Below, one piece after another: positions 10,828 through 46,565 of a stretch of 64,000 bases of DNA. The notes under the pieces were generated by a model. It was given only the letters and a program-made list of their open reading frames with translations, was not told the origin of the DNA and searched no databases. The stretch's first letter is position 1. Each line of letters starts with the position of its first letter. Made by a program: the position numbers and the translations under genes. The stretch comes from a virus: positions 1-64,000 of the IMG/VR virus record IMGVR_UViG_3300044948_000997; one strand, 5' to 3'.

Positions 10828-11673
10828 ATGTTACTTAAATTAGGATCAGAAGGAGAAGATGTAAAAAAACTCCAAGTAAAATTAGGGGTTGACCCAATTG
10901 GTAAATTTGGACCAAAAACCGAAGCCGCGGTAAAGAATTGGCAATCTAAAAATGGATTATCGGCAGATGGTATTGTCGGAGATAAGACTTGGGGAGTTAT
11001 TATGGGTATAACCGAACAAGTTAGTGCACCTACGGTTATTACCGAACCCGCACCTGTTAAGAGTGTTGGTGGGTTAAAATTAGAAAAATTAAAAGGTCAT
11101 ATTCCAGATAGTGTTATCTCTATGATTCCTGATACTGCAGCTAAGTTTCAAATAGACACTCCGTTAAGGTTAGCCCATTTCTTGGCACAATGTGGACATG
11201 AGAGTGGTGGATTTAGATTGACAAAAGAAAATTTAAACTATTCAGCTAAAGGATTGAATGGTACATTTAAGAAATATTTTCCAACACTTGAATCCGCAAT
11301 TCCTTATGAGAGAAAACCTGATAAAATTGCAAATAAAGTATATGGTGGAAGAATGGGTAACGGACCTGAATCGTCAGGAGAAGGTGCAAAGTTTTGTGGA
11401 CGTGGTTATATCCAATTAACAGGAAAAGAAAACTACACAGCATTCGGTAAATCAATAAACGAAGATATATTATCTAATCCAGATAAAGTTGCATCAAATT
11501 ATGCGTTATTATCTGCGGCTTGGTTCTTCAGTAAGAATGGGTTACATAAAATGGCTGACGAGGGGTCAAGTGACACTGTTGTTACTAAAATAACTAAGAG
11601 AGTAAACGGTGGAACAATTGGATTACCTGACCGTATAAAACACTTTAAAGAATATTATTCTTTATTATCGTAA
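10828..11673 (+). CDS. endolysin: peptidoglycan-binding domain plus GH19 hydrolase
   Basis: 281 aa. Residues 1-60 form a PG_binding_1 domain (LGSEGEDVKKLQVKLG, then DGIVGDKTWG). Residues 85-281 form a GH19 chitinase/lysozyme-type domain with the catalytic Glu in CGHESGGF (E125) and the conserved GRGYIQLTGKENY (191-203). GH19 endolysins cleave the glycan strands of peptidoglycan at the end of infection. No signal peptide, so release probably needs a holin; candidates are at 54481 and 55104. Monocistronic, with a TATTTATA motif and a terminator. Confidence 0.92.
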   Translation: MLLKLGSEGEDVKKLQVKLGVDPIGKFGPKTEAAVKNWQSKNGLSADGIVGDKTWGVIMGITEQVSAPTVITEPAPVKSVGGLKLEKLKGHIPDSVISMIPDTAAKFQIDTPLRLAHFLAQCGHESGGFRLTKENLNYSAKGLNGTFKKYFPTLESAIPYERKPDKIANKVYGGRMGNGPESSGEGAKFCGRGYIQLTGKENYTAFGKSINEDILSNPDKVASNYALLSAAWFFSKNGLHKMADEGSSDTVVTKITKRVNGGTIGLPDRIKHFKEYYSLLS

Positions 11674-20517: not shown

Positions 20518-20518
20518 C

Positions 20519-21049
20519 ATGAAATTACATTTAGGATGTGGGAATAAACATATTGAGGGATACGTTAATATTGATATTAGATATTTGCCGGGTGTTGATG
20601 AGGTTAACAATGTCGGTAGATTACGAAATTATAAAAACAATTCGGTAGATATAATTTATGCATCTCATATCTTAGAACATTTTGGTAGATGGGAATATCA
20701 ATCGGTGTTAAAGAGATGGTATGATTTATTAAAAAATGGAGGAACATTAAGATTAGGGGTTCCGGATTTTGGTGCAATCGTAGAATATTATAATAAGACA
20801 AAAGACTTAAGAGGGGTTTCCGGTATGTTATATGGTGGGCAAGACTATCCTGAAAATAATCATTATTGGGTTTGGGATTTTGATGTGTTATCTAAAGAAT
20901 TAAAAGAGATTGGGTTTACTGAAATAAATAAATATGATTGGAGAGATACTGAACATTCCAATCTTGATGATTATACACAATCATATCTCCCACATATGGA
21001 TAAAGAAAACGGTGTTTTATTAAGTTTAAATGTTGAGGCAAAAAAATAA
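20519..21049 (+). CDS. SAM-dependent methyltransferase
   Basis: 176 aa. LHLGCGNKHIEGYVNID (residues 3-19) is the SAM-binding motif I and following acidic strand. SVDIIYASHILEHF and LKNGGTLRLGVPDF are motifs II-III of class I methyltransferases. The type is common in polysaccharide loci, where it methylates sugars. Starts 1 nt after the GT60-like gene. Confidence 0.8.
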   Translation: MKLHLGCGNKHIEGYVNIDIRYLPGVDEVNNVGRLRNYKNNSVDIIYASHILEHFGRWEYQSVLKRWYDLLKNGGTLRLGVPDFGAIVEYYNKTKDLRGVSGMLYGGQDYPENNHYWVWDFDVLSKELKEIGFTEINKYDWRDTEHSNLDDYTQSYLPHMDKENGVLLSLNVEAKK

Positions 21050-21055
21050 GAAATT

Positions 21056-21940
21056 ATGGATGAGAATAAATATTTTTTAGATTTATGGGGAGGATCTCAT
21101 TATTATGATAAAACTAATGGAACTTATCAATTTTCAAGAGATTGTGGATTATTTTCTTGTTTAACAGTATTAACATATGGTATAAAAAAATTCACTTTAC
21201 ACGGGTACATTCCAAAAAATATTTCATTAACATTATTAGAATATGATTACAATACGGATTATTATAATGATTTATTTAAAATTGGTGATGGCGATTTTAA
21301 GTTAGATGATATTGACAATTTAACAATGGAACATCAAATGAAATATTGTGAACCGAGTTTTATAGGAATAGGTCGAGCTAAATCTCATTTAAATTTTAAT
21401 ATTTTAAAAAGAATTTATGATAAATATTTTATTTTATCTGACACCGTAAAAGAATATATAAAAGAGATTGAAGATAAACATATTTCAGATTATTCTAATA
21501 CCGTTTTAATTTGGGCTAGAAAGACTGACAAAGATCTTGAAATATTAGTTCCGGATGTTGCCGATTACATTAAATTAGTTGATGAATTAAATTTAAGAGG
21601 TAAAGACATAATATTACAAACCGACGATTTAAGGGTATATAACGATTTTAAATCATTAGGTTTAAAGTGTAGAACATTAGATGAAATACCATACGCAAAA
21701 GATAATTACAGTGGGTTTCATCGAAAATTATGTAACATTACTGATGAAGAATTTTTAATTGAATATAACATGACTAAAAAATATTACTTACAAAGAATAT
21801 TGGCATTAGTTCACGTCGCATCTAAATGTGATACGTTAATTATATATCCAGGTAATCTATCCACATATATTCCATTAATAAGAGGTAATTGGGATAACGT
21901 ATATTCCTACGAAAATAAACATAATTTAATTCCAGAATAA
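21056..21940 (+). CDS. fucosyltransferase-like glycosyltransferase
   Basis: 294 aa. VLIWARKTDKDLEILVP (about residues 148-164) followed by DIILQTDDLRVYNDF resembles the R-x-T-D-K / TDD core of GT-B alpha-1,6-fucosyltransferase/NodZ-like enzymes. The N-terminal half is unrecognised. It shares general layout with the next gene. Probably adds a deoxyhexose to the same glycan. ATG overlap with the following gene. Confidence 0.55.
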   Translation: MDENKYFLDLWGGSHYYDKTNGTYQFSRDCGLFSCLTVLTYGIKKFTLHGYIPKNISLTLLEYDYNTDYYNDLFKIGDGDFKLDDIDNLTMEHQMKYCEPSFIGIGRAKSHLNFNILKRIYDKYFILSDTVKEYIKEIEDKHISDYSNTVLIWARKTDKDLEILVPDVADYIKLVDELNLRGKDIILQTDDLRVYNDFKSLGLKCRTLDEIPYAKDNYSGFHRKLCNITDEEFLIEYNMTKKYYLQRILALVHVASKCDTLIIYPGNLSTYIPLIRGNWDNVYSYENKHNLIPE

Positions 21941-22788
21941 TGAAAGTATTAGTACAACACACCTTTAACACAGGAATGGGAGATTTTTTAAATTGCATTT
22001 ATGAATATTTCCACACTTGTGAAAATTTAAAAAAGATTGGATATAACGATTTTAGTATAAAATTTTCTTTAAATAAAAACGTTTACTTACACAAAGATTC
22101 GTTTTTTGATTTTTTTAAAAGAGAAACTTTTGAAACAATTTTTAATAGTATTGAGATTATCGACAATCCAATCGTTTCGGTAAAATATGGAGATATGGAA
22201 AGAATAATCTCAATTGGAAACGCAGACCCTGGTGCACATTTATGGGATTTATTTGTTGAGGATGGATATGATGAAAATGTTAAAAACGCATTTAAACAAT
22301 ATTCATATAAAAAACCTGAAATCCCATATATTGATTTTTTTAATGACAAAATTAATGAAAAATATCAAAATTTAAAGAAAGAATATGGTTTAGATGATTA
22401 CGTCTCAATTTATTATCGTACACACGATTTACAAGATAATGAAGACACATATGTTAATTTTGAGTCTGAATTTGATGAAATTATAAGAAATAATGATAAA
22501 ATATATGTTTCATCTAACGCGTATTTATTTAAAGAGTATGTTAAAAAATATGGTGATAAAATAGTAATGTACGATATACCGGGAGAAGATGTTGCAGGAA
22601 ACCATTATAATTACAACCGTGTTTTTTATGACAATAAAGACATGATACATTTGAGGACTGAGTTTGTTTTATTTGAAATGTTAACACTATCGGACTCAAA
22701 AGAGGTTAATTTTTTCACATTATGGGGAAGAGAATCTAACTTCTTATTATTAACAAAAGTTAAAGAAACCCCTATAATTACAAAATGA
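21940..22788 (+). CDS. putative GT-B glycosyltransferase
   Basis: 282 aa. Starts MKVLVQHTFNTGMGDFLNC, a typical sugar-nucleotide-fold opening. VSIYYRTHDLQDNEDTY (about 150-166) and KIYVSSNAYLFKEYV correspond to the R-x-H/D and S/T-D-N positions of fucosyltransferase-like proteins. Overlaps its neighbours by 1 and 4 nt. Substrate unknown. Confidence 0.5.
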   Translation: MKVLVQHTFNTGMGDFLNCIYEYFHTCENLKKIGYNDFSIKFSLNKNVYLHKDSFFDFFKRETFETIFNSIEIIDNPIVSVKYGDMERIISIGNADPGAHLWDLFVEDGYDENVKNAFKQYSYKKPEIPYIDFFNDKINEKYQNLKKEYGLDDYVSIYYRTHDLQDNEDTYVNFESEFDEIIRNNDKIYVSSNAYLFKEYVKKYGDKIVMYDIPGEDVAGNHYNYNRVFYDNKDMIHLRTEFVLFEMLTLSDSKEVNFFTLWGRESNFLLLTKVKETPIITK

Positions 22789-23639
22789 AATTAAGTTTTA
22801 CTTTTGAACCGTTAATGAGTTCGTGGGCACCACAAAGAATATTTAATGAATATTACAAATGGTTTAAAGAATCACATCAAAATGTTGACATTGAATATAT
22901 TAACATCGACAATTTCAATAAAACACCATGTGGTCTTTATTCTCCACATAATATGACTATTAGAAATGTGGAAAATAAAAAATATATGATTGTCACATAT
23001 TGGGATAGACCTGATGATTTTACCACTGATTATAATGGTTGGGATATTGAAAATTGTGTAGAGATACTAACGTCGGCTGGTGTTTCAGATAAAGTTGTTG
23101 CAACCCCAACGTCGTATTGCACATATTCATTATCACACGAAAATATTGCAAATGATATTAGAACCACGTTTGATAAAAAAACAAATAACGAATTACTTTT
23201 TAGGGGATTTTTATACTCAATAAGAAAAGAAATGGGTGACTTGGAACCCAATATGATAACAAATGAAAAATTGGGGACGTTTGAATATATGTCTGAAATA
23301 AACAATAATCAAATATCATTAAGTTTAAATGGAGCGGCGGAAATTTGTAATAGAGATATTGAAATATTATCTGTTGGGTCAGTATTATTTAGACCAAAAT
23401 TAAAACAGAAGTTTTATAATCAATTAATTGATGGAGTACATTATGTTGGTTTTGATGAAGATGAAAATCCAAATAATCAAATTGAAATCATTAAAGAAAA
23501 GTTTGCAGAAATGAGAAACCAATACGATTTATTAAAATCAATTTCAGAAAATGGCCTTAAATGGTATCATGAAAATGGTTCAATAAAAGGTAATGTTAAT
23601 GTATTAAAAAAAGTAATAAAAATAGAAAATTTAAAATAA
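22785..23639 (+). CDS. putative GT-B glycosyltransferase (CgeB-like)
   Basis: 284 aa. The C-terminal segment ISLSLNGAAEICNRDIEIL followed by SVGSVLFRPKL (about 180-210) resembles the conserved N-G-x-x-E-x-x-x-R-x-x-E/D nucleotide-sugar site of CgeB/DUF3880-type glycosyltransferases. Overlaps the previous gene by 4 nt; the next gene starts 0 nt after its stop. Part of the glycan operon. Confidence 0.55.
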   Translation: MKLSFTFEPLMSSWAPQRIFNEYYKWFKESHQNVDIEYINIDNFNKTPCGLYSPHNMTIRNVENKKYMIVTYWDRPDDFTTDYNGWDIENCVEILTSAGVSDKVVATPTSYCTYSLSHENIANDIRTTFDKKTNNELLFRGFLYSIRKEMGDLEPNMITNEKLGTFEYMSEINNNQISLSLNGAAEICNRDIEILSVGSVLFRPKLKQKFYNQLIDGVHYVGFDEDENPNNQIEIIKEKFAEMRNQYDLLKSISENGLKWYHENGSIKGNVNVLKKVIKIENLK

Positions 23640-24404
23640 ATGACAAATCAATCAACTAAAGTCATTTTAACAATGACAACAATACCTAATAGATTGAATG
23701 ACTCAACATTAGAAACGGGGATTGGACCCGTTATTGTTAGGATGACAACATTATCATATGATAATTATGAATTACATTTAAACATACCATATATTAATGC
23801 TAAAATAAATCAAGAATACATTATACCTGATTGGTTACAAAATTATCAATCAGATAAATTAAAAATTTTTAGAACCATTGATTATGGTTCAGTTACTAAA
23901 ATCTTACCGACATTAGAAAGAATAAATGACCCTGAACAGATAATCATAACGGTAGACGATGATTTGGAATACATGGATGGATTTATTGAATATCATTTAT
24001 TAAAAAGAAACGATTATCCCGATTTTGCTTTGGGGTTTGCTGGCGTTGGATCAATAGGTGGTGATTGTCATTTTTGTACTACATTACCTAAAGACACTAG
24101 AGTTAAAATATTGGAAGGATATAAAACCGCGTCATATAAAAGAAGTTTTTTTAATGACGATTTTTATGAATTTTCAAAAGGTAGTTGGAGTGATGATGTA
24201 ATAATCTCAGCATACTTGGGTAAAAATAATATTCAAAAATATGTAATGAGTTATAATTTAGATGAAGACTTTAATCCAGTAGTTGAGTCTTTTCCTGTGG
24301 TTAGAATATTACCTAATGAAGCAGGTGGATGTCACGTGTTTAGAAATGAAAACATATACGATAATAGTAGTTCGTACCATAAATTAGGATATCTTGAAAA
24401 ATAG
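23640..24404 (+). CDS. GT-A-type glycosyltransferase
   Basis: 254 aa. ILTMTTIPNRL near the start, IIITVDDDLEYMDG with a DDD metal motif (about residues 100-113), and FSKGSWSDDVIISAYL near the C-terminus as an acidic acceptor-site block. Resembles uncharacterised GT-A enzymes of capsule loci. Follows without a gap in the operon. Confidence 0.6.
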   Translation: MTNQSTKVILTMTTIPNRLNDSTLETGIGPVIVRMTTLSYDNYELHLNIPYINAKINQEYIIPDWLQNYQSDKLKIFRTIDYGSVTKILPTLERINDPEQIIITVDDDLEYMDGFIEYHLLKRNDYPDFALGFAGVGSIGGDCHFCTTLPKDTRVKILEGYKTASYKRSFFNDDFYEFSKGSWSDDVIISAYLGKNNIQKYVMSYNLDEDFNPVVESFPVVRILPNEAGGCHVFRNENIYDNSSSYHKLGYLEK

Positions 24405-24407
24405 TAT

Positions 24408-26084
24408 ATGAGTAAAGTAACAATAGTAACAGGTATTTGGGACATAAAAAGAAGTGAACTATCCGAAGGGTGGAATCGTTCTTTTAATCATTATTTAATT
24501 CATTTATCTAACTTAATGAAAGTTGATGACAACATGATAATTTATGTTGAGGAGAAATATAAGTCATTTGTGGAAGAAAAAAGAAGTTCAAGCAATACAT
24601 TGATTATTGTCAGAGAATTAGAATGGTTTAAATCAAACGAGTTAATTTTCAATAACATACAAAAAATAAGACAATCGTCTGAATGGTACAATCAGTCTGG
24701 TTGGTTACCGGAAAGTACTCAGGCTAAATTAGAGATGTACAATCCGATTGTTATGTCTAAAATGTTTTTATTAAATGACGCATCTATTATGGACCCATTT
24801 AATTCTACACATATGGTTTGGGTTGATGGTGCGTTAACCAACACAGTACATGAGGGTTATTTTTGGAATGATAATGTTATTAAAAAATTAAACAAACATT
24901 TTAATAAATTTAGTTTTGTTTGTTTTCCATATGACGGTAAAGTTGAAATCCATGGTTTCAAGTATGATGAGATGTGTAAATATGCAAACGATGAAGTTAA
25001 TAAAGTTGCTAGAGGTGGTATTTTTGGTGGTCCTAAACATTTAATAAATCATATTAATCAAATATATTATGATTTATTAAGCGACACCTTATCAAAAGGA
25101 TTGATGGGGACTGAGGAGAGTTTATTTACCATAATGACTTATAAACATCCCGATTTAATACAATACTTTGAAATTGAATCAAATGGACTGTTGGGGTTAT
25201 TTTTTGAAAATTTAAAAAATGATAATTTAACACCTAAGATTGAGGGTAAACAATTAAATAACATTAATTTACATGATAGAGAAAATGTTGCATTATATGT
25301 TTTAACGTACAATTCACCAAGACAATTTGAAAAATTATGTTTATCCTTTGAAACGTATGATAGGAACTTCATAGATAGACCTAAAAAATTTCTATTAAAT
25401 AATTCATTAGATAGGTCGACAGACTTGGCGTATGCTGAACTTTGTGATAGATATGGTTTTGAAGAAATTAAAAAAGACAATATAGGTATTTGCGGTGGTA
25501 GACAATTTATTGCGGAACATTCAGATGAACATGGTTTTGATTATTATTTCTTTTTTGAGGACGATATGTTTTTTTATATGGGTCCCGATGAATTTTGTAG
25601 AAATGGTTTTAGAAGAAAAATAAAAGATTTCTACAATGTTATGATGGACGTTATTTGGAAAGAAAATTTTGATTATTTAAAATGGAATTTTAGTGAATTT
25701 TTTGGTGACAACACAAGACAATGGGCTTGGCACAACGTACCAGCAAATGTTAGGTCAGAATTATTCAAAGACGCACCAATCAAATTTAACGACGATTATA
25801 GTTTAGCTCCGTTTTTAAATTTTAAAAACATTAAATCACATAAAGGATTACCATACGCTACAGGTGAGATTTATTATTGTAATTGGCCACAAGTGGTTTC
25901 AAAAGAAGGTAATAAGAAAATGTTTTTAGATACAAAATGGGGTCACCCATACGAACAAACTTGGATGTCTCACATATATCAAGAAACAATTAAAGGTAAG
26001 GTTAACACCGCAATACTTTTAGCGTCACCAACAGAACATGATAGATTTGATCATTATCCCGGAAACGATAGAAGGGAAAATTAA
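24408..26084 (+). CDS. HtrL/YibB-like plus GT-A glycosyltransferase fusion
   Basis: 558 aa. The N-terminal half (about 1-280) has VTIVTGIWDIKRSELSEGW and a STHMVWVDGALT block, typical of HtrL/YibB proteins. The C-terminal half starts NVALYVLTYNSPRQ (about 291) and contains DYYFFFEDDMFFY, a GT2-like metal site. Two glycosyltransferase-like modules in one chain imply sequential transfer or coupled initiation. Last gene of the operon. HtrL homologues sit in LPS core clusters, so a surface-glycan target is plausible. Confidence 0.7.
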   Translation: MSKVTIVTGIWDIKRSELSEGWNRSFNHYLIHLSNLMKVDDNMIIYVEEKYKSFVEEKRSSSNTLIIVRELEWFKSNELIFNNIQKIRQSSEWYNQSGWLPESTQAKLEMYNPIVMSKMFLLNDASIMDPFNSTHMVWVDGALTNTVHEGYFWNDNVIKKLNKHFNKFSFVCFPYDGKVEIHGFKYDEMCKYANDEVNKVARGGIFGGPKHLINHINQIYYDLLSDTLSKGLMGTEESLFTIMTYKHPDLIQYFEIESNGLLGLFFENLKNDNLTPKIEGKQLNNINLHDRENVALYVLTYNSPRQFEKLCLSFETYDRNFIDRPKKFLLNNSLDRSTDLAYAELCDRYGFEEIKKDNIGICGGRQFIAEHSDEHGFDYYFFFEDDMFFYMGPDEFCRNGFRRKIKDFYNVMMDVIWKENFDYLKWNFSEFFGDNTRQWAWHNVPANVRSELFKDAPIKFNDDYSLAPFLNFKNIKSHKGLPYATGEIYYCNWPQVVSKEGNKKMFLDTKWGHPYEQTWMSHIYQETIKGKVNTAILLASPTEHDRFDHYPGNDRREN

Positions 26085-33937: not shown

Positions 33938-33939
33938 TG

Positions 33940-34333
33940 TGGAGATGACGGGACTCGAACCCGTGTCTTTCCGGTTCAACAATAAATGACTACACGTTTA
34001 TTCAATTAGTTCTTAATTGACAAATAGAAGGTTAATATCAGGAAACCTACAATACTGTTCCTAACCGGATTTTCAAGAGCCGTCAAGTTTGCTCCAACAC
34101 TCTGGGGTTATGTTCCACCGAAGGGACTTCTGTTCCTAGGTTATATGTCCATCGACCCGATTGTAGTTTCGCCTTAGGCTACTGCTACGTTAGAAGTTGC
34201 AAGTAAACCTGCAATTTCCATGTTTGTGTAAACGTTTCCGTTTGAAATTTTCCACCGTAGATTTAAGTCATAGATGAAGTCTGACTACGTGCCATTTATC
34301 CCTGATACCTGAAATCAATTCCATGGCATCCCC
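33940..34333 (-). ncRNA. ssrA: tmRNA (transfer-messenger RNA)
   Basis: 394 nt. The 5' strand GGGGATG pairs with CATCTCC at the 3' end, with a G3-U70 pair as required by alanyl-tRNA synthetase. The T arm reads GGGTTCGAGTCCC-like and the discriminator is A; CCA is not encoded. A tag frame ends in TAA at 34174-34176 and reads NVYTNMEIAGLLATSNVAVA before the stop; the resume codon is probably GGA (34237-34239) or the preceding AAC, giving 21-22 residues. Typical Bacteroidota tags are about ten residues. It would rescue stalled ribosomes and tag nascent proteins. Own -7 box and terminator. Confidence 0.93.
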
Positions 34334-34660: not shown

Positions 34661-35341
34661 TCAAGAGGTAAGTGGGAGATTTTTATCAAATAATGCCTCA
34701 AAGTATAATTTATTCTTTTCCCACTTCTTATTTGTCATTCCGATTGAAAGGTGAGTTACCCCAAATTTGGTTGTTAACCCAATTTTAACCCCCTCTAAAA
34801 AATTCTCAACACAGAAGGGAATGTCATAAAAATGAAACCCTTCAAATTGTTCGTTAAATTCCTTCTTTATACGTCCCTTATGAACCGCAAAGAATAAACC
34901 GTCTACTATTACCACATCCTTAAGAACGTCGTTGTATGACCCCTTAGAATACTTGTTAACGTGTCGTTTACCTTCATGTATATGACCAACAACACCAAAC
35001 ATATTTTCCCTATTCTCCCACCAACATCCACTTGTTAATTTATCGGTTCCTGCAATGCCAATTATACCATATTCGGAATGCTTTTCAAACATTTTCACAA
35101 CCTTAGGAGTCATATTTGGAGTTTCTAAAATAAGATCGTCGTGCATAAACACGACTATATCATTTTCAGATTCCTTTAGACCAATATTATAAATTTGAGT
35201 TAACGATTTTTCACCATCATTCTCATAAATAAGAATTTGAGTTTTTGGGTGTGAAAACATCTTTTTAACGTGATTAACGTAAGTCTCATCTATTTTACGT
35301 GTTGATATAACAACACTCACTATTTCATTATTCTTCGACAT
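34661..35341 (-). CDS. GT2-like glycosyltransferase
   Basis: 226 aa from MSKNNEIVSVVIST. DIVVFMHDDLILETP (about residues 66-80) carries the metal-binding acidic pair, and VIVDGLFFAVHKGR is the acceptor-side block of GT-A family 2-like enzymes. Overlaps the metallophosphoesterase gene by 14 nt. Probably part of glycan modification; substrate unknown. Confidence 0.65.
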   Translation of the reverse strand: MSKNNEIVSVVISTRKIDETYVNHVKKMFSHPKTQILIYENDGEKSLTQIYNIGLKESENDIVVFMHDDLILETPNMTPKVVKMFEKHSEYGIIGIAGTDKLTSGCWWENRENMFGVVGHIHEGKRHVNKYSKGSYNDVLKDVVIVDGLFFAVHKGRIKKEFNEQFEGFHFYDIPFCVENFLEGVKIGLTTKFGVTHLSIGMTNKKWEKNKLYFEALFDKNLPLTS

Positions 35342-36080
35342 AGGTTGCAATTATTTTACCTTCAACTTCTTCTAAGTCAACTATGATTGGTTTATTTGAT
35401 GGTTCATATCTTTCCGTACAAATTGATGCATTAACATAAAGAGTTTCTCTATTATAAACCGCACCATAAGCTCCGTGGATATGTCCAAATACATGTAATA
35501 ATGGTTTTAATCTATTTTCTAATTGATGTCTTAATAATTCACAACCCACGTTCATATCCCCTTGTCTCCAATTACTTACAAAATCTCTAATCTCATTTGG
35601 TGGTCCGTGTGTAATTAGTACATCAGTATCATCAGGAATCATATCCCATTTAGTTTTAAGTTCATCACCCATTCTTGGTAAGTTAAAAGCCCAATCATAA
35701 AAATTTGGTTGCCAAGGACTTCCGTAGATTTTAATTGGTCTTGAGAATTCAGGACTATTTATTACAATAAATTCATCCTGTAAGTAAAATACATTCGATT
35801 CTACTAAATTATCAAAACTCATTAAATCATTTAACCAATCATAATCACCTCTATGATGAGGTTCATCGACTTTTTCAAAACAAAAATCGTGATTACCTGC
35901 AATGAATATTTTATATTGAAAATCATCAATATTTTGAAACCAATGTACAAAATTGGTAACATCTTTCTCACCTCCTTTATTTGAAATGTCCCCTGAATGT
36001 ATCAACACATCACCTTTGGGGATTGGGTGGGACATTAGGTCCTGAAGACTATGCGTGTCTGATAAGCAGATTATTCTCAT
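35328..36080 (-). CDS. calcineurin-like metallophosphoesterase
   Basis: 250 aa. All family motifs are present: SDTH (residues 7-10), HSGDIS, AGNHDF, THGPP and FGHIHGAYG. Closest in style to MPPED-type phosphodiesterases. It could hydrolyse nucleotides, cyclic nucleotides or phosphoprotein. Middle of a GT2-phosphoesterase pair; a small gap separates the dioxygenase-like gene. Confidence 0.85.
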   Translation of the reverse strand: MRIICLSDTHSLQDLMSHPIPKGDVLIHSGDISNKGGEKDVTNFVHWFQNIDDFQYKIFIAGNHDFCFEKVDEPHHRGDYDWLNDLMSFDNLVESNVFYLQDEFIVINSPEFSRPIKIYGSPWQPNFYDWAFNLPRMGDELKTKWDMIPDDTDVLITHGPPNEIRDFVSNWRQGDMNVGCELLRHQLENRLKPLLHVFGHIHGAYGAVYNRETLYVNASICTERYEPSNKPIIVDLEEVEGKIIATYVEE

Positions 36081-36120
36081 AAAACAAATATAAGAAATTA
36101 AACGTGAAATATCAAATTAC

Positions 36121-36711
36121 TTAAGGGGTTACTTCAAAAACTAAATTTACCCTAACTTTATTTGATGCATTAATGAAGGTATGTAGGGAATTTCCAATCG
36201 AATAGACTGAACCTGATTTTAAATTATGAATAGAATTTAATTCACTATCATTTAAAAAAAACTCATTAAACTCATCAAAATTTTCAGGGAAATCTTTTCT
36301 CATTTTATTATAGATTTCACCTTTTTCATGTAGTTTTTGTTCAAGTAAACATTCATAATTATAAAACTTAACGTCATCATTTAATGGTAAAATATACCTG
36401 TTTAATCCTCTATCAATGTGAAAATTAATCTCACCCTTTTGTGCGTACTCTAAATAAAATAAGATGTTAATATTAAATAATTTTTTTAAACTATCAATAA
36501 AGTTAGTTAAATCATCTTTTACTCGATAACTAATTTCATGAATAGAATCTAAACTATATACTTTCTTAAAATTTGGGTCTCTATTATAAATGATGTAATT
36601 AACATTATGATTTAAAAAATGTTTTAAGTGAAAAGAATCGGAATTATAAAAATCAATGACTTTTGTCAAATAAACATCATCTATTTCCGTTATCTTTTTT
36701 AATCCTTCCAT
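36121..36711 (-). CDS. 2-oxoglutarate-dioxygenase-like (Asp/Asn hydroxylase type)
   Basis: 196 aa. NFHIDRGLNRYILPLN contains the HxD metal pair, and SLHTFINASNKVRVNLVFEV supplies the distal His and the Arg that binds 2-oxoglutarate. The fold matches the aspartyl/asparaginyl beta-hydroxylase cupin group. Would hydroxylate a protein or small molecule. A second dioxygenase (PhyH type) is at 46802. Confidence 0.6.
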   Translation of the reverse strand: MEGLKKITEIDDVYLTKVIDFYNSDSFHLKHFLNHNVNYIIYNRDPNFKKVYSLDSIHEISYRVKDDLTNFIDSLKKLFNINILFYLEYAQKGEINFHIDRGLNRYILPLNDDVKFYNYECLLEQKLHEKGEIYNKMRKDFPENFDEFNEFFLNDSELNSIHNLKSGSVYSIGNSLHTFINASNKVRVNLVFEVTP

Positions 36712-36728
36712 TTATATAATTATATGGC

Positions 36729-36756
36729 AAAAAAAAAAGTCAGAATTTCTTCTGAC
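36729..36756 (-). terminator. strong intrinsic terminator of the large RNA
   Basis: 7-bp stem gtcagaa 36739-36745 with ttctgac 36750-36756 and ten T on the minus strand. It marks the 3' end of the structured RNA upstream. Confidence 0.9.
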
Positions 36757-37683
36757 TGGTTTTTCTTTAGGCCGAACGGTTTTAAAACGTTCCGATTCCA
36801 CCACTTTGTTTTACTAAACAAAGAAAATAAAACACTGAGAATACATGTCTTAATGAGAATCTTTTAAACGGATTATTGTTTCCCGTTTGTTTCCACTACC
36901 TTTTGAGTAGTAACCCTCAGCGGCGGTCAATTAGATTAACCAATCCTAAAGTCATCAGATACTCTTTTAATACTCATTACTCTTCGAGATTGCCATCCCA
37001 ATTAAACCTTATGAGTTTAGAGAACTTTTTTAAAAATCATATTGGGATTGAGTCCCTTTATGGCCGTGAACCCCTCACGACTAAGTAGCCACCTGTCTCC
37101 AATGACTGACGAACACTTTTTCTTTTATTTTTTTAGTTTTCACCATTGAAAGTAAAAGTTTGGTTTGCAGATTAGGAAAGTAGCGGTTCGTCGACCAGCC
37201 AAGCCACCTTTTGAGCGACTCGATACTAAACTACTCTCTAAGACATCCCTGCCTTCATATTTTTGGTTTCCTTCAGAATTAAACCCTTGGTAGAGTTTAA
37301 TTAAGGATGATAACAGCACCACCTGTTTTCCACCATACCTTTCGGTTTTAAAGATACCATTATATTGAACAACACAATTATAAGGTTGGAGACCTTATTT
37401 CTTGTAATAGTTCTACAAGTTATTCTTATTGTTCTTCCGAACTCAGTCAAACGACCTGCATCGCTTGACCACCAAACCACTTTCCCTACAGTGTTACCCT
37501 CAGTACTTAAGGTTCGATGATACCTTGCTTGCCTACTCGAGTTCTATTTCTAAAACCGCAATCTCATTCAACCAAATGAAATTACTTTATCCCACTTTCA
37601 TGGTTTATTTTGTTGACCATAGGCGGCCAATATTTTTAATTCAAAGAACTTTTTCTTTCGATAAAACCACCTTTGTGATTTCT
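36729..37683 (-). ncRNA. large structured non-coding RNA (~950 nt), GOLLD/ROOL-like candidate
   Basis: Almost 1 kb without a convincing reading frame, between a -7 box and a strong terminator. Minus-strand stems: 37446-37454/37461-37469 (9 bp), 36995-37002/37041-37048 (8 bp), 37277-37284/37295-37302 (8 bp), 36804-36811/36816-36823 (8 bp), 36925-36931/36935-36941 (7 bp), 37380-37385/37393-37398, 37401-37406/37414-37419. GNRA loops: GTTC-GGAA-GAAC at 37431-37442 and ACC-GAAA-GGT at 37337-37346. The size, GNRA loops and phage context with tRNAs recall GOLLD and ROOL, but I cannot confirm membership; no RNase P, group I or group II core is seen. Confidence 0.7.
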
Positions 37684-37687
37684 TTTA

Positions 37688-37695
37688 CAAATATA
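37688..37695 (-). promoter_or_regulatory. host-type -7 box for the large RNA
   Basis: TATATTTG on the minus strand, about 5-10 nt before the apparent start of structure; no clear -33 box, so co-transcription with the 77-aa gene is also possible. Confidence 0.5.
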
Positions 37696-37719
37696 CAACT
37701 TATATTTGGTAATAAAAAA

Positions 37720-37953
37720 TTATTTAGAAACTTTTTTATTATTTTTTTTCTTTTCAACCTTAACTTCGTAAGTTCCACCCATATCGTGTTGAGTTTCAAC
37801 AACTTGTGTTTTTTTATTACCCTTCCAATCTGATTTAGGGATAAATTTCCAAACACCGCTAGCCACTTTTTGGTCTGCATCAATATCGTCAGTTCTACGA
37901 ATTTCTCCTAATGTATAGGATTTTGTTTCTTTAATTGCTTTAATACATTTCAT
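37720..37953 (-). CDS. 77-aa basic protein
   Basis: Starts MKCIKAIKETKSYTLGEIRR and ends in a Lys-rich tail (VEKKKNNKKVSK). The middle KVASGVWKFIPKSDWKGNKK is beta-like. It sits directly upstream of the large RNA on the same strand, so it could bind that RNA (pure inference from context and charge). No known family. Confidence 0.6.
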   Translation of the reverse strand: MKCIKAIKETKSYTLGEIRRTDDIDADQKVASGVWKFIPKSDWKGNKKTQVVETQHDMGGTYEVKVEKKKNNKKVSK

Positions 37954-38006
37954 ATGTCCATGTTTTAATTATAATAAAATATACAAAAAAATATTGATAA
38001 AAAAAA

Positions 38007-38360
38007 CTATTTCCAAAATAATGATATAACAATTATTGTAAATGCCAATAATAATTGTGTAACAGTTTTCATAGTAAAAGGTTGATCAAAATGATAAGGA
38101 TATAACACCGCTGCGATAATAATTCCAGTCACAAAAAATAAAAATCGATTACTCCACATTTCACCATTGAAAGCTTTTACCCCATAATGTGACGCCATTA
38201 TCCATAAAAAAGTACATACAATAGAAATTAAATATGGCCAAGGTGTTTTAACCCAATTAGGTAATTTAAATTGCCAATACATAATATACCAATGTCCAAT
38301 GGAACCCAATAGAAATAATAGTATTGAGTATAAAAGATTTATTAATTGTGACTTAATCAT
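38007..38360 (-). CDS. four-helix membrane protein
   Basis: 117 aa with four hydrophobic helices (about 8-28, 43-62, 73-90, 98-115), resembling small-multidrug/DMT-type transporters in size. Overlaps the sulfotransferase-like gene by 4 nt, so it is the last gene of the operon. May carry a lipid-linked or nucleotide sugar; not certain. Confidence 0.6.
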   Translation of the reverse strand: MIKSQLINLLYSILLFLLGSIGHWYIMYWQFKLPNWVKTPWPYLISIVCTFLWIMASHYGVKAFNGEMWSNRFLFFVTGIIIAAVLYPYHFDQPFTMKTVTQLLLAFTIIVISLFWK

Positions 38361-39130
38361 GTTAATTTAATATTTGTGTCATATCCGTAATATTCCAATT
38401 CAGGTAAAAAATATTTATATAGTTGTTTCATGTTGTTTAAAGTGGCTTCTTCAGAATAATCCCACCTCAAATGATGTTTTTGATTGAAATATACTTTATA
38501 ATATGAATATAACATTATAAAATCGAATGTTAATTCTTTATCAAAAAAACTTAAAAAATCAAAACTTTTAAGTAACGAATCAACATTTTGTGTGGTGTAA
38601 TCTAATTTAGAATCATATAATACACCATTATTAACATTGTATTTATTTGCTAAATCCTCAATTCTGTAAAAATTAAACGTTGAGTGTTTAAATTTCTTTG
38701 CAAAATCAGATTCTAAATTTTTATACTTGGTAAATTCGTATCCATTAGTAAATTCTTCTAATAGATATGTTGATTGTGGTAGGAAATGTGGGTCACCATA
38801 ACTTTTAATAAAATTAGGATATTCCTTAACAAAGGTATCTAACGAGTTTATGTTCAATTCAGATACCAAATTCCTTAACTTATCGTTTTCACGATTTTCT
38901 TCATCATATTTTAATCTATTTTGTAACCAACTATAACATGAAAAAAATCTATCGACTGGATTTCTAACAAAAATATTACAACATTCTTGAATACCGCTTA
39001 AATCTTCTCTAATAAAATGATTTATATCATGTATCCTAAATAAATGAGATAATGTCGTCCCAATTAAATTTTTTCCTGATTTAAATGGGATAATATACGA
39101 AACGGAACAATCCGGTAGACTTAAAACCAT
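38357..39130 (-). CDS. sulfotransferase-like protein
   Basis: 257 aa. PFKSGKNLIGTTLSHLF (about 16-32) sits where sulfotransferases have the 5'-phosphosulfate loop, and CNIFVRNPVDRFFSCYSWL (about 51-69) is a very typical 3'-phosphate-binding block (V-R-x-P-x-x-R-x-x-S-x-Y). The family transfers sulfate from PAPS to carbohydrates. Phage sulfotransferases are rare. No PAPS-synthesis gene is visible, so host PAPS would be used. Confidence 0.65.
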   Translation of the reverse strand: MVLSLPDCSVSYIIPFKSGKNLIGTTLSHLFRIHDINHFIREDLSGIQECCNIFVRNPVDRFFSCYSWLQNRLKYDEENRENDKLRNLVSELNINSLDTFVKEYPNFIKSYGDPHFLPQSTYLLEEFTNGYEFTKYKNLESDFAKKFKHSTFNFYRIEDLANKYNVNNGVLYDSKLDYTTQNVDSLLKSFDFLSFFDKELTFDFIMLYSYYKVYFNQKHHLRWDYSEEATLNNMKQLYKYFLPELEYYGYDTNIKLT

Positions 39131-39166
39131 ATAAACTAATATACAAAAATTTTGTGATAATACAAA

Positions 39167-39511
39167 TTATTTAATAAATTCAGAAAAACAAACCGCTTTG
39201 TCGTCAATTAAATAATCATAGTGTAATTTACCCATTATTAAACCGTGGTGTTTAATCCCCCACTCTTCCAAACTATTTAATGTTAAAACATACAAAGAAT
39301 TGTAAACCTTAACTAAATCACCATTAAATTGACCCATACCTCTTGCGGTATAAATGTAAATGGTGTTACCTTCATCGTAAAGTTTATTTAATTTTTCAAT
39401 CATTGCTGGAATGGGATGACAATGTTTGTATTTGTCAGGACCTAAATGTTCAACTCCTTCTTCTCTTGTACATAACGTATCATCCAAATCAAACGCGTAA
39501 ATTTTAGACAT
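39167..39511 (-). CDS. HAD-family phosphatase
   Basis: 114 aa. FDLDDTLC (residues 6-13) is motif I, YIYTARGMGQ motif II, and GKLHYDYLIDDKAV covers motifs III and IV. Short C0-type HADs like this occur in capsule loci. Likely dephosphorylates a sugar phosphate made by the neighbours. Overlaps the GatZ-like gene by 8 nt. Confidence 0.8.
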   Translation of the reverse strand: MSKIYAFDLDDTLCTREEGVEHLGPDKYKHCHPIPAMIEKLNKLYDEGNTIYIYTARGMGQFNGDLVKVYNSLYVLTLNSLEEWGIKHHGLIMGKLHYDYLIDDKAVCFSEFIK

Positions 39512-40466
39512 AACTTAACAATTCATTTAACTTATTCATTATCATAGATTTAACTTCAGTTGTTATTTTAATATCACTTGCAATAGAATTAGGTAAGTTA
39601 TCAAAATTATAGTGACCACAAACCATTATTAACTTTTTCTTATCTAAAATATCAAAATCATCGTTAACCCATTTTTTCCATTTTTCAGATTTAAAACATT
39701 TTAAATAAAAATTATCAATTTCAGATTGATTCATGTGTTTTAAATAAATTTCAGTTTCAATTTGTGCAATTTCAGGACCAATATTAATAGAACTTAAACC
39801 ACTATCAAACCTAATTCGAAAATCGGTTTCTTTTAAGTAATCACCATTATGTTCTTTTGTTTGTTTACCAAAAAAAGTAGATAATGTAATCATTTGTTTT
39901 AGTTTATCAATATTAAAAATACCGGTGTTTATTTGGTTAACTAAATCGAGACCAACTCCTGATTGAACACACACATAAGTTATGTTCTTAAACATTTCGG
40001 GAGTTAATCGAATATGTAATTCGTCAATGTATCTGTCTAATTCATCTATTGAGAATGGACGAATTGCCTCTTCGGTACCCACCTCAAATTTAATGCTTTT
40101 ATTATGTTGGTGGATGTATTCAATATTTTTTATTGTTTCGTTTATCCCATCAAATAATAATTTATGTTTCATCCATGGGTCTAAATGGATTAAATCAAAA
40201 TATTCCAAATCTTCCTCAAATGATACATATTCATCACCATCTTTTTTTCCTTGTTTACCCCCCGAATGATCTCTTTGAATTATTATGTTAGATTTTGTTT
40301 TTACATAATCGGTAAAACTTTTAGTATTCCATTCATTAACATATCCACCATCGTAATCAATTTGGCGACGACTTGGTAGTAGTCCTAATTTTTCTGAATT
40401 AATCTCTATAACCGAATCAACAATGTTTTTAGACATTGGGCATATGAAGAATTTAACTTTAGACAT
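39504..40466 (-). CDS. GatZ/KbaZ-like aldolase-associated protein
   Basis: 320 aa, TIM-barrel-like. IIQRDHSGGKQG, then FDLIHLDPWMKH, KFEVGTEEAIRPF and KEHNGDYL follow the order of motifs in class II tagatose-1,6-bisphosphate aldolase subunit GatZ. In sugar loci such proteins act in phosphosugar aldol chemistry. It overlaps both neighbours by 8 nt, indicating a coupled pathway. Confidence 0.65.
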   Translation of the reverse strand: MSKVKFFICPMSKNIVDSVIEINSEKLGLLPSRRQIDYDGGYVNEWNTKSFTDYVKTKSNIIIQRDHSGGKQGKKDGDEYVSFEEDLEYFDLIHLDPWMKHKLLFDGINETIKNIEYIHQHNKSIKFEVGTEEAIRPFSIDELDRYIDELHIRLTPEMFKNITYVCVQSGVGLDLVNQINTGIFNIDKLKQMITLSTFFGKQTKEHNGDYLKETDFRIRFDSGLSSINIGPEIAQIETEIYLKHMNQSEIDNFYLKCFKSEKWKKWVNDDFDILDKKKLIMVCGHYNFDNLPNSIASDIKITTEVKSMIMNKLNELLSYV

Positions 40467-41088
40467 AATCTTTTCCTGTGTATAATTTAAACTGTTCCAA
40501 AGCTTGGAGTTTGAATATTTCCTTACCAGTCTTTGTAAATGGTCTACCGTCGATTATTGTATTTCTTTTTGATTTGATGTCTGCTGGCGTTGCATTAATG
40601 AAATATTGATTAACAACCTCATCTATATGTTCAACATCTTCTCTATTATATATGACATATCCTATTTTCAATAAATCAAATGCATATTGAATTGATTTAC
40701 TAAACCCACCGTTACCTATTATACTCACAAATTTTAAATTTTTATCTTTAAAATATTCATATGCACCAATGTAATCCGTGTTATATCCCCACAATAAACT
40801 ATCTTTAATTAAAACGGTATTTGCAGCACCAATAGATTTAACCGATTCGGAAATGACATCAAGATATGGTACAACTTCAATTTTTAACGGCATACTTAAT
40901 GCAAAACCTGAAAAATTAAGATGTTTAACCGAACCTATTGTTTTTTTAATATCAGTGGAATAAAATGATTTATAGATTGCATCAATTTTATGTTTCTTAA
41001 ATCCTTTATTAAAAAATATACAACCATTATTACCTGGTTTATCAGAAAACGAACCGTATAATTGAGTATCTTTATTTATCATAGTCAT
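40459..41088 (-). CDS. shikimate-dehydrogenase-like (AroE-family) protein
   Basis: 209 aa, shorter than the usual ~270. FALSMPLKIEV holds the catalytic Lys, GAANTVL and GYNTDYIGAYEYF match the substrate Asn/Asp motifs, and SIIGNGGFSKSI replaces the normal GAGG(A/S) dinucleotide loop. The NADP motif is degenerate and the C-terminal domain is trimmed, so it may act on an unusual polyol. Overlaps its neighbours by 8 and 17 nt. Confidence 0.7.
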   Translation of the reverse strand: MTMINKDTQLYGSFSDKPGNNGCIFFNKGFKKHKIDAIYKSFYSTDIKKTIGSVKHLNFSGFALSMPLKIEVVPYLDVISESVKSIGAANTVLIKDSLLWGYNTDYIGAYEYFKDKNLKFVSIIGNGGFSKSIQYAFDLLKIGYVIYNREDVEHIDEVVNQYFINATPADIKSKRNTIIDGRPFTKTGKEIFKLQALEQFKLYTGKDYV

Positions 41089-42979
41089 CTATCATTTCAA
41101 TACCTTTAAACCATAACATTTTACCAAATTTTTCGTCATGTAATGGTGACATATTAAGAAAGATTAATCCTGTAATTAATTTTATTTTTTGTAAATCATA
41201 TCCATTAAGAATTAACCAATTTTCATATATTAACTTAAATCTAACTAAATTTTCAGATATTGGGTAGTCATATTTTATTGAATACAAACCTTCGGTATAG
41301 TTTAGGTTATCATTATTTTTCATGGTGTTATATGGAATTAATAATCCACCATATAATTTAGATAAGTCATAATAAATGTCACCACTATCTACCGATTCAC
41401 CAAACGAGTCTCTCCAATCAATGTAGTAATATCTACTTTCCTCAGAGTTGTAGATAACATTATCAAACTGTAAATCACCGTGAAATAATACATAGAAATC
41501 ATTTGATAATTCAAATGTCGGTTTACTATGTAGTAAACTACTAAGTGATGGTCTTTTAATACCATTAACCTCATGTTCTAATTCTAAATAATTAAACCCG
41601 TTTTTTTGAACAAATGAGTCAATCCGTTTCTTTGTTTTTGTAACGTAAAACTCTTGAATGTCATTGTCATTACCGGCAACTTTACTTTTAAGATTATACT
41701 CAAGCAATTCTAAGAAATTTGTAAAAACATCTAAATTATCAATTTCATATAGGGTATTACCCTTAACCCAATCATAATGAATGAATTTACTTGTTGAACC
41801 AAAATTAGGAGGTATTAACGAATCTAAAAGTTTCGCTCTTTTACTACGGTTATTTAAAATTGTGATATCAGGAACAAATTTTAAAAATTTATCATTATCA
41901 CAATATGTAATTTCGTTAGTATTTTTTTGTAATGATAATGGTTTGTCTTTAAAATACTCTCTGGTTTTTTGTAAGTCATCTAAATTACCTGTATCAAACC
42001 ACTTTAGTTTTTTTACCTTAAATGTTGGGTAATTTTTTGGGTTAATAAATGCCGATACTATTTCACCATTTAATATGTTTTTAGAAAGTTCATTCCAAAA
42101 AATTTGATAGTCCAAAATTGAACCTAATCCAATAAATGCATTATCGTGACCGTGAATGTCTTTATCTGAAAATGATTGGATGTTGTCAAATTCGTCAATG
42201 TTAATTGTTGAATATTTTTCAGGGTATGACGTAGGATAACATCCTAACCAATTACCATCTAAATACGGTAATGGAGAATCAATTACACAATCACCCGTTA
42301 TAAAATAAAATGGCCTTTGTAAATGTTCTGAACACATTAATGCGCTATAACCAGGACCACTATTTTCAGAATCAAACACATCCACATCTACAAAAATAAA
42401 ATTACAATTTTGATGTGTAATTTTACAATATTCCTTTATTGATTCACTTTCATATCCTAATGCAATTACAATATCATAGTTTATTGGGAACATATCGATG
42501 ATATGTGATATAATCGCTTTGTTATTAATTGGTAATAATACTTTATTAATATTATTTGTAAGATTTTTTAATCTAGTTCCATAACCGGCAGCTAAAATTA
42601 AAACTGCTGGTGTTTGATGTTCACCATCTATCTTACCGTCCATTCGATTTGTATCATCTTCAATTCTAATAACATCATCAACCTCGGGTGTGGACACTTC
42701 TTGCAATATTATGTCAGTTAACGCAATGACCCTATGTTTTTTAGGTGGTGTTACATTAAAATATTCACCAGGACCCATTATTTTTTTCTCAACAATACCT
42801 TCATCATTTTCTAACCATATTTCCGCTTGACCTGAAATAATGAAATTTGTTTCTCGTTTAAAATTATGATATTGGTATGATGTTTTATATCCCGCGTTTA
42901 TATAAATTCTTTTATAGCAATAGGAATCATTTAATTCTAACCACTCTTCTCTACCCCAAGGTTTGTGTATTGTTTTCAT
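41072..42979 (-). CDS. tri-domain cupin / nucleotidyltransferase / kinase fusion
   Basis: 635 aa. Residues 1-105 form a mannose-6-phosphate-isomerase-type cupin (HKPWGREEW, then YKTSYQYH). Residues 125-345 form a sugar nucleotidyltransferase (LILAAGYGTRLKNLT, then FITGDCVID). Residues 380-635 form an APH/choline-kinase-like domain with LFHGDLQFDNVIY and YYIDWRDSF. One chain could phosphorylate and activate a sugar or polyol (LicC/LicA or HddA/HddC logic). The 17-nt overlap with the AroE-like gene ties it to the same pathway. The product sugar is unknown. Confidence 0.8.
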   Translation of the reverse strand: MKTIHKPWGREEWLELNDSYCYKRIYINAGYKTSYQYHNFKRETNFIISGQAEIWLENDEGIVEKKIMGPGEYFNVTPPKKHRVIALTDIILQEVSTPEVDDVIRIEDDTNRMDGKIDGEHQTPAVLILAAGYGTRLKNLTNNINKVLLPINNKAIISHIIDMFPINYDIVIALGYESESIKEYCKITHQNCNFIFVDVDVFDSENSGPGYSALMCSEHLQRPFYFITGDCVIDSPLPYLDGNWLGCYPTSYPEKYSTINIDEFDNIQSFSDKDIHGHDNAFIGLGSILDYQIFWNELSKNILNGEIVSAFINPKNYPTFKVKKLKWFDTGNLDDLQKTREYFKDKPLSLQKNTNEITYCDNDKFLKFVPDITILNNRSKRAKLLDSLIPPNFGSTSKFIHYDWVKGNTLYEIDNLDVFTNFLELLEYNLKSKVAGNDNDIQEFYVTKTKKRIDSFVQKNGFNYLELEHEVNGIKRPSLSSLLHSKPTFELSNDFYVLFHGDLQFDNVIYNSEESRYYYIDWRDSFGESVDSGDIYYDLSKLYGGLLIPYNTMKNNDNLNYTEGLYSIKYDYPISENLVRFKLIYENWLILNGYDLQKIKLITGLIFLNMSPLHDEKFGKMLWFKGIEMIDDYDK

Positions 42980-43708
42980 TTATTTTATATTATTTTTATC
43001 CCAAATTCTTAGACATTTTAAAAGTACTTCTAAATTTAATACATCACTTTTTTCAAACTCTCTAACATTAGGTCTTACAACTACACTATTAAATTCTGAA
43101 ACCGCATCTACATATAACCCTAACGATAAAATGTGTTTAGCTAATTCGGTATGTATATTAAATGTAATTTTATTTGGTAATGTATCGATTAATTTTGAGA
43201 TGTTATGAAATGTACCACAAAAAAATGTATCGACTAAAAAATAATGTTTTAACCCCGTTATATGTATAAAATTACAACCATAAATTCTATCATCTAAAGA
43301 ACATTCTTTTAATTTTTTAATCCCATCATCATTTAACATCATATAGGAATCAGGTCTCATTAAAACAATTAAATCATACTCTTTCCCGCTTTCTTTTATT
43401 AATTTTAAACCATTTTTCCAATGGTAAATCATTTTAGTACTATTAATTAAACCGGGTCCTAACCCATTAAAATCAAATTCAACATTATCTTCATTAACAA
43501 CATCAATAACTGCATTTGGTATGTGTTTTGATATCATTTCGGATGTTATATCTTCATTTAAATCGTATCCCAATGATTCACATTTTTGAATTGATTTACT
43601 CCATGTCGAGAAGTAAAAATCAAAATCGGAATCATTAAGAAATTTCCATGATTTGACTGCAATATCAAATTCTCTATACATTCCATATACAATTATAGCA
43701 ATTTTCAT
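42980..43708 (-). CDS. putative glycosyltransferase, paralogue A
   Basis: 242 aa. MKIAIIVYGMYREFDIAVKSW start, DFDFYFSTWSKS, then LIVLMRPDSYMM (acidic site) and VVVRPNVREFE. Over the whole length it matches the next gene, so they are a tandem duplication. The Rossmann-like start and a DxD-like position suggest a GT-A enzyme of LPS/capsule type. The preceding fusion gene ends immediately before it. Confidence 0.55.
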   Translation of the reverse strand: MKIAIIVYGMYREFDIAVKSWKFLNDSDFDFYFSTWSKSIQKCESLGYDLNEDITSEMISKHIPNAVIDVVNEDNVEFDFNGLGPGLINSTKMIYHWKNGLKLIKESGKEYDLIVLMRPDSYMMLNDDGIKKLKECSLDDRIYGCNFIHITGLKHYFLVDTFFCGTFHNISKLIDTLPNKITFNIHTELAKHILSLGLYVDAVSEFNSVVVRPNVREFEKSDVLNLEVLLKCLRIWDKNNIK

Positions 43709-45726: not shown

Positions 45727-45743
45727 AATTCTTATTTTTAGAG

Positions 45744-45817
45744 TGGACCAGATAGGAATCGAACCTATTACCTTCACATTATGAGTGTGCCGCTCTAACC
45801 TAGTGAGCTACAAGTCC
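45744..45817 (-). tRNA. tRNA with CAT anticodon (Met or Ile2)
   Basis: 74 nt. Acceptor GGACTTG with CTGGTCC, D arm TAGCTCACTAGGTTAGAGC, anticodon loop CTCATAA, T arm ATAGG-TTCGATT-CCTAT, discriminator A. CCA not encoded. With CAT it may be elongator Met or a lysidine-modified Ile tRNA; G1-C72 argues against an initiator. Confidence 0.9.
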
Positions 45818-45827
45818 AAAATTTACG

Positions 45828-45901
45828 TAATCCCGTTTGGATTCGAACCAAAGACCCACATCTTAGAAGGATGTTGCTCTATCCAACTGAGCTACGGAAC
45901 C
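45828..45901 (-). tRNA. tRNA-Arg(TCT)
   Basis: 74 nt. Acceptor GGTTCCG with CGGGATT (two G-U pairs), anticodon loop CTTCTAA, T arm TTTGG-TTCGAAT-CCAAA, no CCA. It reads AGA, the Arg codon an AT-rich phage would use most. Ten nt upstream of tRNA-Met. Confidence 0.9.
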
Positions 45902-45941
45902 AAAATTAACACTATCGTCTTTGAAAGTTTTTATTTAATCG

Positions 45942-46190
45942 TTATGCCTTACGGCTTATTGTTATTTTACTCTCAAGTTTATCTAAACGTGAATCCAATA
46001 CACGATAAACATCGTTCATTGCATTTTCACGTTCTCTGTTTTGATTTTCAATCTCTCTTCCGAGACATTGTTCTACTTCTCTAATTTCTTTGTTTAGTTT
46101 ATTAACCTTAACAAAGGCAATAACCGCAACTACCGCAACTGCGATAACCACAACTATTGACATTCCTAAAATAAATGATAATATATCCAT
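45942..46190 (-). CDS. single-pass membrane coiled-coil protein
   Basis: 82 aa from MDILSFILGMSIVVV (ATG 46190). One N-terminal transmembrane helix (about 5-30), then a long charged coiled coil (KVNKLNKEIREVEQCLG to SRLDKLESK). Topology resembles inner-membrane spanin subunits, though spanins usually face the periplasm and pair with a lipoprotein. Lies between the tRNA pairs. Confidence 0.6.
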   Translation of the reverse strand: MDILSFILGMSIVVVIAVAVVAVIAFVKVNKLNKEIREVEQCLGREIENQNRERENAMNDVYRVLDSRLDKLESKITISRKA

Positions 46191-46243
46191 ATTAATTTTC
46201 TCCTTTATTTTCAAAGAACGATAGTGTTGTAATAAAATATAAC

Positions 46244-46276
46244 AAAAAAAACCCGAATAAAAAAATTCGGGTTTTT
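46244..46276 (-). terminator. intrinsic terminator of the tRNA-Asp/Ser unit
   Basis: cccgaat 46252-46258 with attcggg 46265-46271, T runs on both sides, so it can work in both directions. On the minus strand it lies right after tRNA-Ser. Confidence 0.85.
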
Positions 46277-46281
46277 CTGTT

Positions 46282-46372
46282 TGGCGGAGAGAGTAGGATT
46301 CGAACCCACGGGCCAGTTTCCCGGCCTCCTGATTTCAAGTCAGGTGCAATAGACCAACTCTACCATCTCTCC
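46282..46372 (-). tRNA. tRNA-Ser(TGA)
   Basis: Class II tRNA of 91 nt including an encoded CCA. Acceptor GGAGAGA with TCTCTCC, anticodon loop CTTGAAA, long variable arm, T arm GTGGG-TTCGAAT-CCTAC. It reads UCA and is the only tRNA here with an encoded CCA. Confidence 0.92.
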
Positions 46373-46379
46373 AATTTTC

Positions 46380-46490
46380 CCGTTTTTTCCTCACATTTAG
46401 CCCAATCAACAGTGAGACATTGATTGGATTTTGATCATAGAAGCTTATAAGGTTTCCCCATTAAGCCGTTACCACGGGCAAACTAAATCA
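46380..46490 (-). other. structured spacer between tRNA-Asp and tRNA-Ser
   Basis: About 110 nt. A 7-bp hairpin (CAATCAA with TTGATTG) and a GCCGTTAC...GGGC-type stem are visible. Unusually long for a tRNA-tRNA spacer and may be a processed RNA of its own. Confidence 0.4.
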
Positions 46491-46491
46491 G

Positions 46492-46565
46492 CGGACTAGA
46501 CGAGACTCGAACTCGCGACCTTCGGCGTGACAAGCCGACATTCTAACCAACTGAACTACCAATCC
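46492..46565 (-). tRNA. tRNA-Asp(GTC)
   Basis: 74 nt. Acceptor GGATTGG with CTAGTCC, discriminator G, anticodon loop CTTGTCA-type with GTC, T arm GCGAG-TTCGAGT-CTCGT; CCA not encoded. First tRNA of the promoter-driven unit. Confidence 0.92.

Follow-up and report, generated by a model that had tools for sequence, protein, structure and literature searches.

A full-length GOLLD RNA between tRNA and tmRNA genes of a large phage

The gene-free stretch and its surroundings

We analyzed a stretch of 64,000 nucleotides (hereafter the window), corresponding to positions 1 to 64,000 of the 129,722-base viral record IMGVR_UViG_3300044948_000997. The phage setting is apparent from the virus record itself and from an endolysin and other phage families, and the window also contains tRNAs. 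The endolysin (10828-11673, plus strand) carries peptidoglycan-binding and GH19 domains and is 57.5% identical to one in the huge uncultured phage LR745206. A ClpB/ClpC-like AAA+ protein is encoded at 62117-63985 (minus strand), and its homologues in LR745206 and LR756502 lie 2-6 kb from GOLLD. By eye, the ORFs at 19267-26084 and 34661-43708 form a run resembling glycosyltransferase and sugar-metabolism genes, a number unusual for a phage stretch; that at 34661-35350 was confirmed by Pfam.

Between an ORF of 77 amino acids (37720-37953) and one of 196 amino acids (36121-36711), both on the minus strand, we found no plausible gene, as the original prediction of a gene-free stretch of about 1 kb had proposed. 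The longest ORFs inside the stretch encode 60 and 59 amino acids on the minus strand, and 70 and 134 amino acids on the plus strand, the last extending past the 5' end of the RNA described below. Folding of the 946 nt from 36738 to 37683 (minus strand) gave an energy of -261.6 kcal/mol, compared with -216.5 +/- 5.7 kcal/mol for 20 dinucleotide shuffles (z = -7.9), so the predicted minus-strand RNA is structured beyond chance. If the stretch were coding or untranslated DNA with fortuitous structure, the short ORFs present in all frames would be expected, but three of the four longest frames were checked in 100 related sequences and are broken by stops in 84-91 of them, with no conserved reading frame among the three. 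Together with the fold energy and the covariation described below, this refutes such an explanation, to which we assign a negligible probability.

The putative transcript is bounded on both sides. A -7 box, TATATTTG, lies at 37688-37695 (minus strand) and probably belongs to a Bacteroidota-type promoter; TTTG-N19-TATCTTTG or TATATTTG occurs at the equivalent place in the close relatives L082, L029/L040, L076 and L046. At the other end, a terminator scan found an intrinsic terminator (36729-36757, minus strand), conserved in relatives, which consists of an 8-bp GAAA-capped stem (AGUCAGAA-GAAA-UUCUGACU, 36738-36757) and a T run. The host-like -7 box and the strong terminator noted in the original prediction were thus both recovered. 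From the promoter-like box to the terminator, positions 36729-37683 (minus strand) are a good estimate of the span of the predicted transcript, about 950 nt. Transcription would start from the RNA's own host-type promoter and end at the GAAA-capped terminator. The two GNRA-capped hairpins that had been pointed out are this terminator and a hairpin at 37592-37603. A third, CCGAAAGG, lies near 37340, where some relatives have longer stems instead of the loop.

Family membership and two-domain architecture

The Rfam GOLLD model (RF02032) matched the minus strand at 36832-37238 end to end (model positions 1-416 of 416) with 298.8 bits and an E-value of 1.7e-84, about twice the gathering score of 150 bits. 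ROOL and all other large-RNA models in Rfam gave no match at the gathering threshold, and the ROOL model found nothing in the stretch even at E<=1. RsaF scored 19 bits (cut-off 60, E 0.88), which we attribute to chance. ROOL, like GOLLD, is a giant phage RNA cage near tRNAs (PMC12286853), but the window RNA has no match to the ROOL family model. The original prediction had suggested a giant phage RNA of the GOLLD or ROOL type and had left membership or novelty open; the match settles this as membership in GOLLD. The record contains a single copy.

The Rfam model covers only the 3' half of the RNA, which we refer to as the 3' domain, and the upstream ~400 nt (5' domain, 37239-37638, minus strand) lie outside it. 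To characterize both halves, we collected at least 168 full-length relatives with both domains by pattern scans of viral contigs, of which 100 were non-redundant. Within the window's group, a match to one domain only always reflected truncation at a contig end, except in L150, a GOLLD of Acinetobacter type in which the sequence profile had failed to pick up the 5' part.

RNAalifold on 37 sequences predicted 195 pairs, 134 of them with at least one double-sided change. We then divided the non-redundant set by cluster into halves, between which identity reached at most 0.94-0.96, trained the fold on one half and counted pairs on the other. In the held-out half, 95.5% of pairs were standard in the 5' domain and 96.2% in the 3' domain, and double changes were seen in 73 of 102 and 62 of 86 pairs, respectively. 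When partners were slid by 1-3 columns, standard pairs fell to 37-42% (5' domain) and 38-47% (3' domain). Covariation across homologues, a check that had been proposed for this region, is therefore strong in both halves. Of the two observations named beforehand as refuting the original prediction, absent covariation and a conserved translated frame, neither was made. Many high-covariation column pairs do not stack into helices (for example, 37572 with several columns), and these we read as shared ancestry.

Several elements stand out in the alignment. The 5' domain contains the hairpin CCAU-GAAA-GUGG (37592-37603, minus strand), whose GAAA loop is invariant in all 100 non-redundant relatives and whose stem covaries. 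In the 3' domain, the strand at 36920-36924 forms a long-range pseudoknot with 37088-37092, supported by covariation with 98-100% standard pairs. An A-rich linker at 37124-37163 is variable and unpaired, and corresponds to the unpaired stretch in Rfam.

We considered whether the 5' domain might be a type specific to this clade. A sequence profile built from the entire domain had no match in the GOLLD of Acinetobacter phages (Herod MW316732 and YMC13/03/R2096), whose sequence has diverged beyond the reach of such a profile. A covariance model (R1) that covers the first 116 positions of the domain found the 5' end of the Acinetobacter phage GOLLD in the right place with 55 bits, and reading of the Acinetobacter sequence showed the same domain; we therefore regard it as the general GOLLD layout and not as a new 5' module. 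The 3' domain of these phages scores 225 bits to Rfam. The sole pattern match in a bacterial genome, L085 (Acinetobacter haemolyticus), reached 9 bits to the 3' profile with no 5' match and was set aside as either fortuitous or too distant.

Between the GOLLD core and the terminator lies a module of two hairpins (36774-36823, minus strand), CUUUGUUU-AGUA-AAACAAAG at 36804-36823 and GGUGGAAUC...GAACG/CGUUC at 36774-36792. This clade-specific 3' extension has no Rfam match, and L042, L046, L070 and L081 form equivalent hairpins from differing letters. The idea that it is a separate mobile element was dropped, as scans with a stricter motif gave hits solely beside GOLLD.

The 3' extension and the 5' ~400 nt are both without an Rfam model, which could be taken to mean that the RNA belongs to ROOL or to an unrelated or new giant class merely resembling GOLLD. 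This is already refuted by the full-length match to RF02032 at twice the cut-off; in addition, ROOL is unmatched, the 5' domain always accompanies the GOLLD 3' domain, and the GOLLD of Acinetobacter phages shares its 5' end. We consider a separate class exceedingly unlikely. Taken whole, the stretch almost certainly encodes a complete GOLLD RNA from a large phage.

Contacts corresponding to those of the GOLLD cage

GOLLD env-38, solved by cryo-EM, forms a 14-mer cage that has a 5' cap and a 3' ring (PMC12286853). The window RNA shares with env-38 all 416 model positions of the 3' domain, domains of ~400 and ~410 nt, a variable linker that is equally placed and, at equivalent sites, loops that are self-complementary as well as kissing contacts. 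The names of the contacts below were carried over from env-38 by position.

The two domains are predicted to be tied, cap to ring, by a 4-bp interdomain helix. Its strands, a 5'-domain hairpin loop at 37456-37460 and a 3'-domain strand beside the linker at 37166-37170 (both minus strand), covary through the variants GUGG/CCAC, CCGA/UCGG, GUAG/CUAC, ACCG/CGGU, GCAG/CUGC and GCGG/CCGC, indicating repeated compensatory change.

The env-38 study reports that L20 kisses J13/15, that L27 pairs with J24/26, and that two loops form symmetric kissing contacts: L21a, with GC or CG as its internal dinucleotide, and L21b (PMC12286853). By position, the L20-J13/15 contact (bridge B7) corresponds in the window to the hairpin loop at 37050-37051 kissing 37121-37122, complementary in 99 of 100 sequences with the variants GG/CC, GC/GC, GA/UC and UC/GA. 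The L27-J24/26 contact corresponds to the loop base at 36841 pairing with 36891 (UA in 71 and AU in 29 sequences, 100% complementary). At L21b (bridge B9), GC lies in the loop GGCA at 36992-36993, and an xGCR loop is present in 100 of 100 sequences. At L21a (bridge B8), the window has a self-complementary AU at 37011-37012 in place of GC or CG (all on the minus strand). Every one of the 100 sequences has a self-complementary dinucleotide in this loop: GC in 79, CG in 14 (GUCGA-type loops), AU in 4 including the window, and a shifted GC in 3. Such switching among GC, CG and AU is difficult to account for if copies do not contact each other in vivo.

The L21a-type loop of the window, CAUAA where CGCAA is usual, could instead mark a decayed or non-functional copy. 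We find this very unlikely, given that AU can pair with itself as well and is the dinucleotide of 4 of the 100 non-redundant sequences, and that the promoter-like box, the terminator and every other contact are intact. As judged from loops matched by position, the window RNA retains the contacts that keep the GOLLD cage of the cryo-EM structure assembled. Because the self-complementary loops and kissing contacts are preserved, the RNA most likely forms an RNA-only homo-oligomeric cage as in env-38 (14-mer), by analogy with which the ~40-nt A-rich linker, disordered inside the env-38 cage (PMC12286853), would lie within.

Gene neighborhood, host and possible role

As had been expected for an RNA of this kind, tRNAs lie nearby, and a tmRNA accompanies them. 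The gene order in the window is a tRNA array (Met, Arg, Ser and Asp, 45743-46565, minus strand) upstream of GOLLD, then GOLLD, a phosphoesterase and a phage tmRNA gene (33939-34333, minus strand; found by ARAGORN and matching Rfam RF00023 with 81 bits). In the window's group, it is a metallophosphoesterase gene (35328-36080) that separates GOLLD from the tmRNA. The predicted tag of the window tmRNA is ATSNVAVA, and relatives have ATSNVEVA or longer tags. Among relatives with enough sequence, a tmRNA lies at most 2.5 kb downstream of GOLLD in 12 of 62 and upstream in 0 of 70, counts in which several tmRNAs are on the opposite strand and the relatives are not independent, so that a binomial p-value computed from them is too strong. 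As a control, 475 kb of unrelated viral loci contained 1 tmRNA. Proximity of GOLLD to tRNAs is already known (PMC12286853, PMC6582537) and is shared with env-38, from which the window differs in its downstream tmRNA, its Bacteroidota-type promoter and the extra two-hairpin 3' extension. The tmRNA neighborhood appears undescribed in the titles and abstracts of the few papers naming both GOLLD and tmRNA.

In 15 of 97 relatives, the GOLLD core is followed after 6-20 nt by the start of a tRNA for Met, Leu or Thr. In L008 (2371-2444), L014 (8675-8747), L031 (8941-9014) and further relatives, the tRNA, most often tRNA-Met, starts ~10 nt past the GOLLD 3' end and ahead of the terminator, an arrangement that would suit a single transcript of GOLLD and tRNA. 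The Acinetobacter copy lies within a tRNA array and, in Herod, is followed by tRNA-Asp after 10 nt. This direct succession in some relatives suggests that RNase P would set the GOLLD 3' end there.

The nearest named records are the huge uncultured phages LR756502 (642 kb) and LR745206 (634 kb), whose GOLLD copies score 275 and 287 bits, contain both domains and are ~65-73% identical to the window's in aligned parts. They differ in their tRNAs, with one starting 10 nt after GOLLD in LR756502 and a tRNA-Met upstream in LR745206. For two window proteins, LR745206 provides the best or a near-best match in the phage collection. A paper on phages of these sizes assigns those >634 kb to the Mahaphages, for which it predicts Bacteroidetes as hosts, and has no mention of GOLLD in its main text (PMC7162821). 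Given these matches and that host prediction, the source is probably a jumbo phage of a Bacteroidota host, related to the Mahaphage group.

As GOLLD is encoded in a tRNA-tmRNA block, a role in translation can be proposed. Expression during phage lysis is a trait counted for the GOLLD family, and an RNA-only cage made during infection is the best-supported mechanism. The likeliest role for it, which we regard as possible rather than probable, would be within a phage translation program, handling tRNA, tmRNA or ribosomes. This role is conjecture, drawn from gene order and the ribosome pull-down cited in PMC12286853. A tmRNA is near only about one-fifth of the relatives with enough flank, so the link to translation may merely reflect where phages keep RNA genes. 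The more elaborate scheme strikes us as improbable: tRNA, GOLLD and tmRNA would form a translation block, RNase P would make the GOLLD 3' end at a tRNA 6-20 nt downstream in many relatives (with the hairpin extension and terminator instead in the window), and the cage would store or handle tRNA, tmRNA or ribosomes in infection.

The window RNA adds a member to an already known family, GOLLD belonging to a small set of natural RNAs that are known to form a hollow, protein-free cage, and supplies useful comparative data on its assembly contacts, for which the full-length relatives provide a covariation test. The one-sided tmRNA neighborhood and the tight tRNA spacing are testable leads on how GOLLD may be processed and what it may do.
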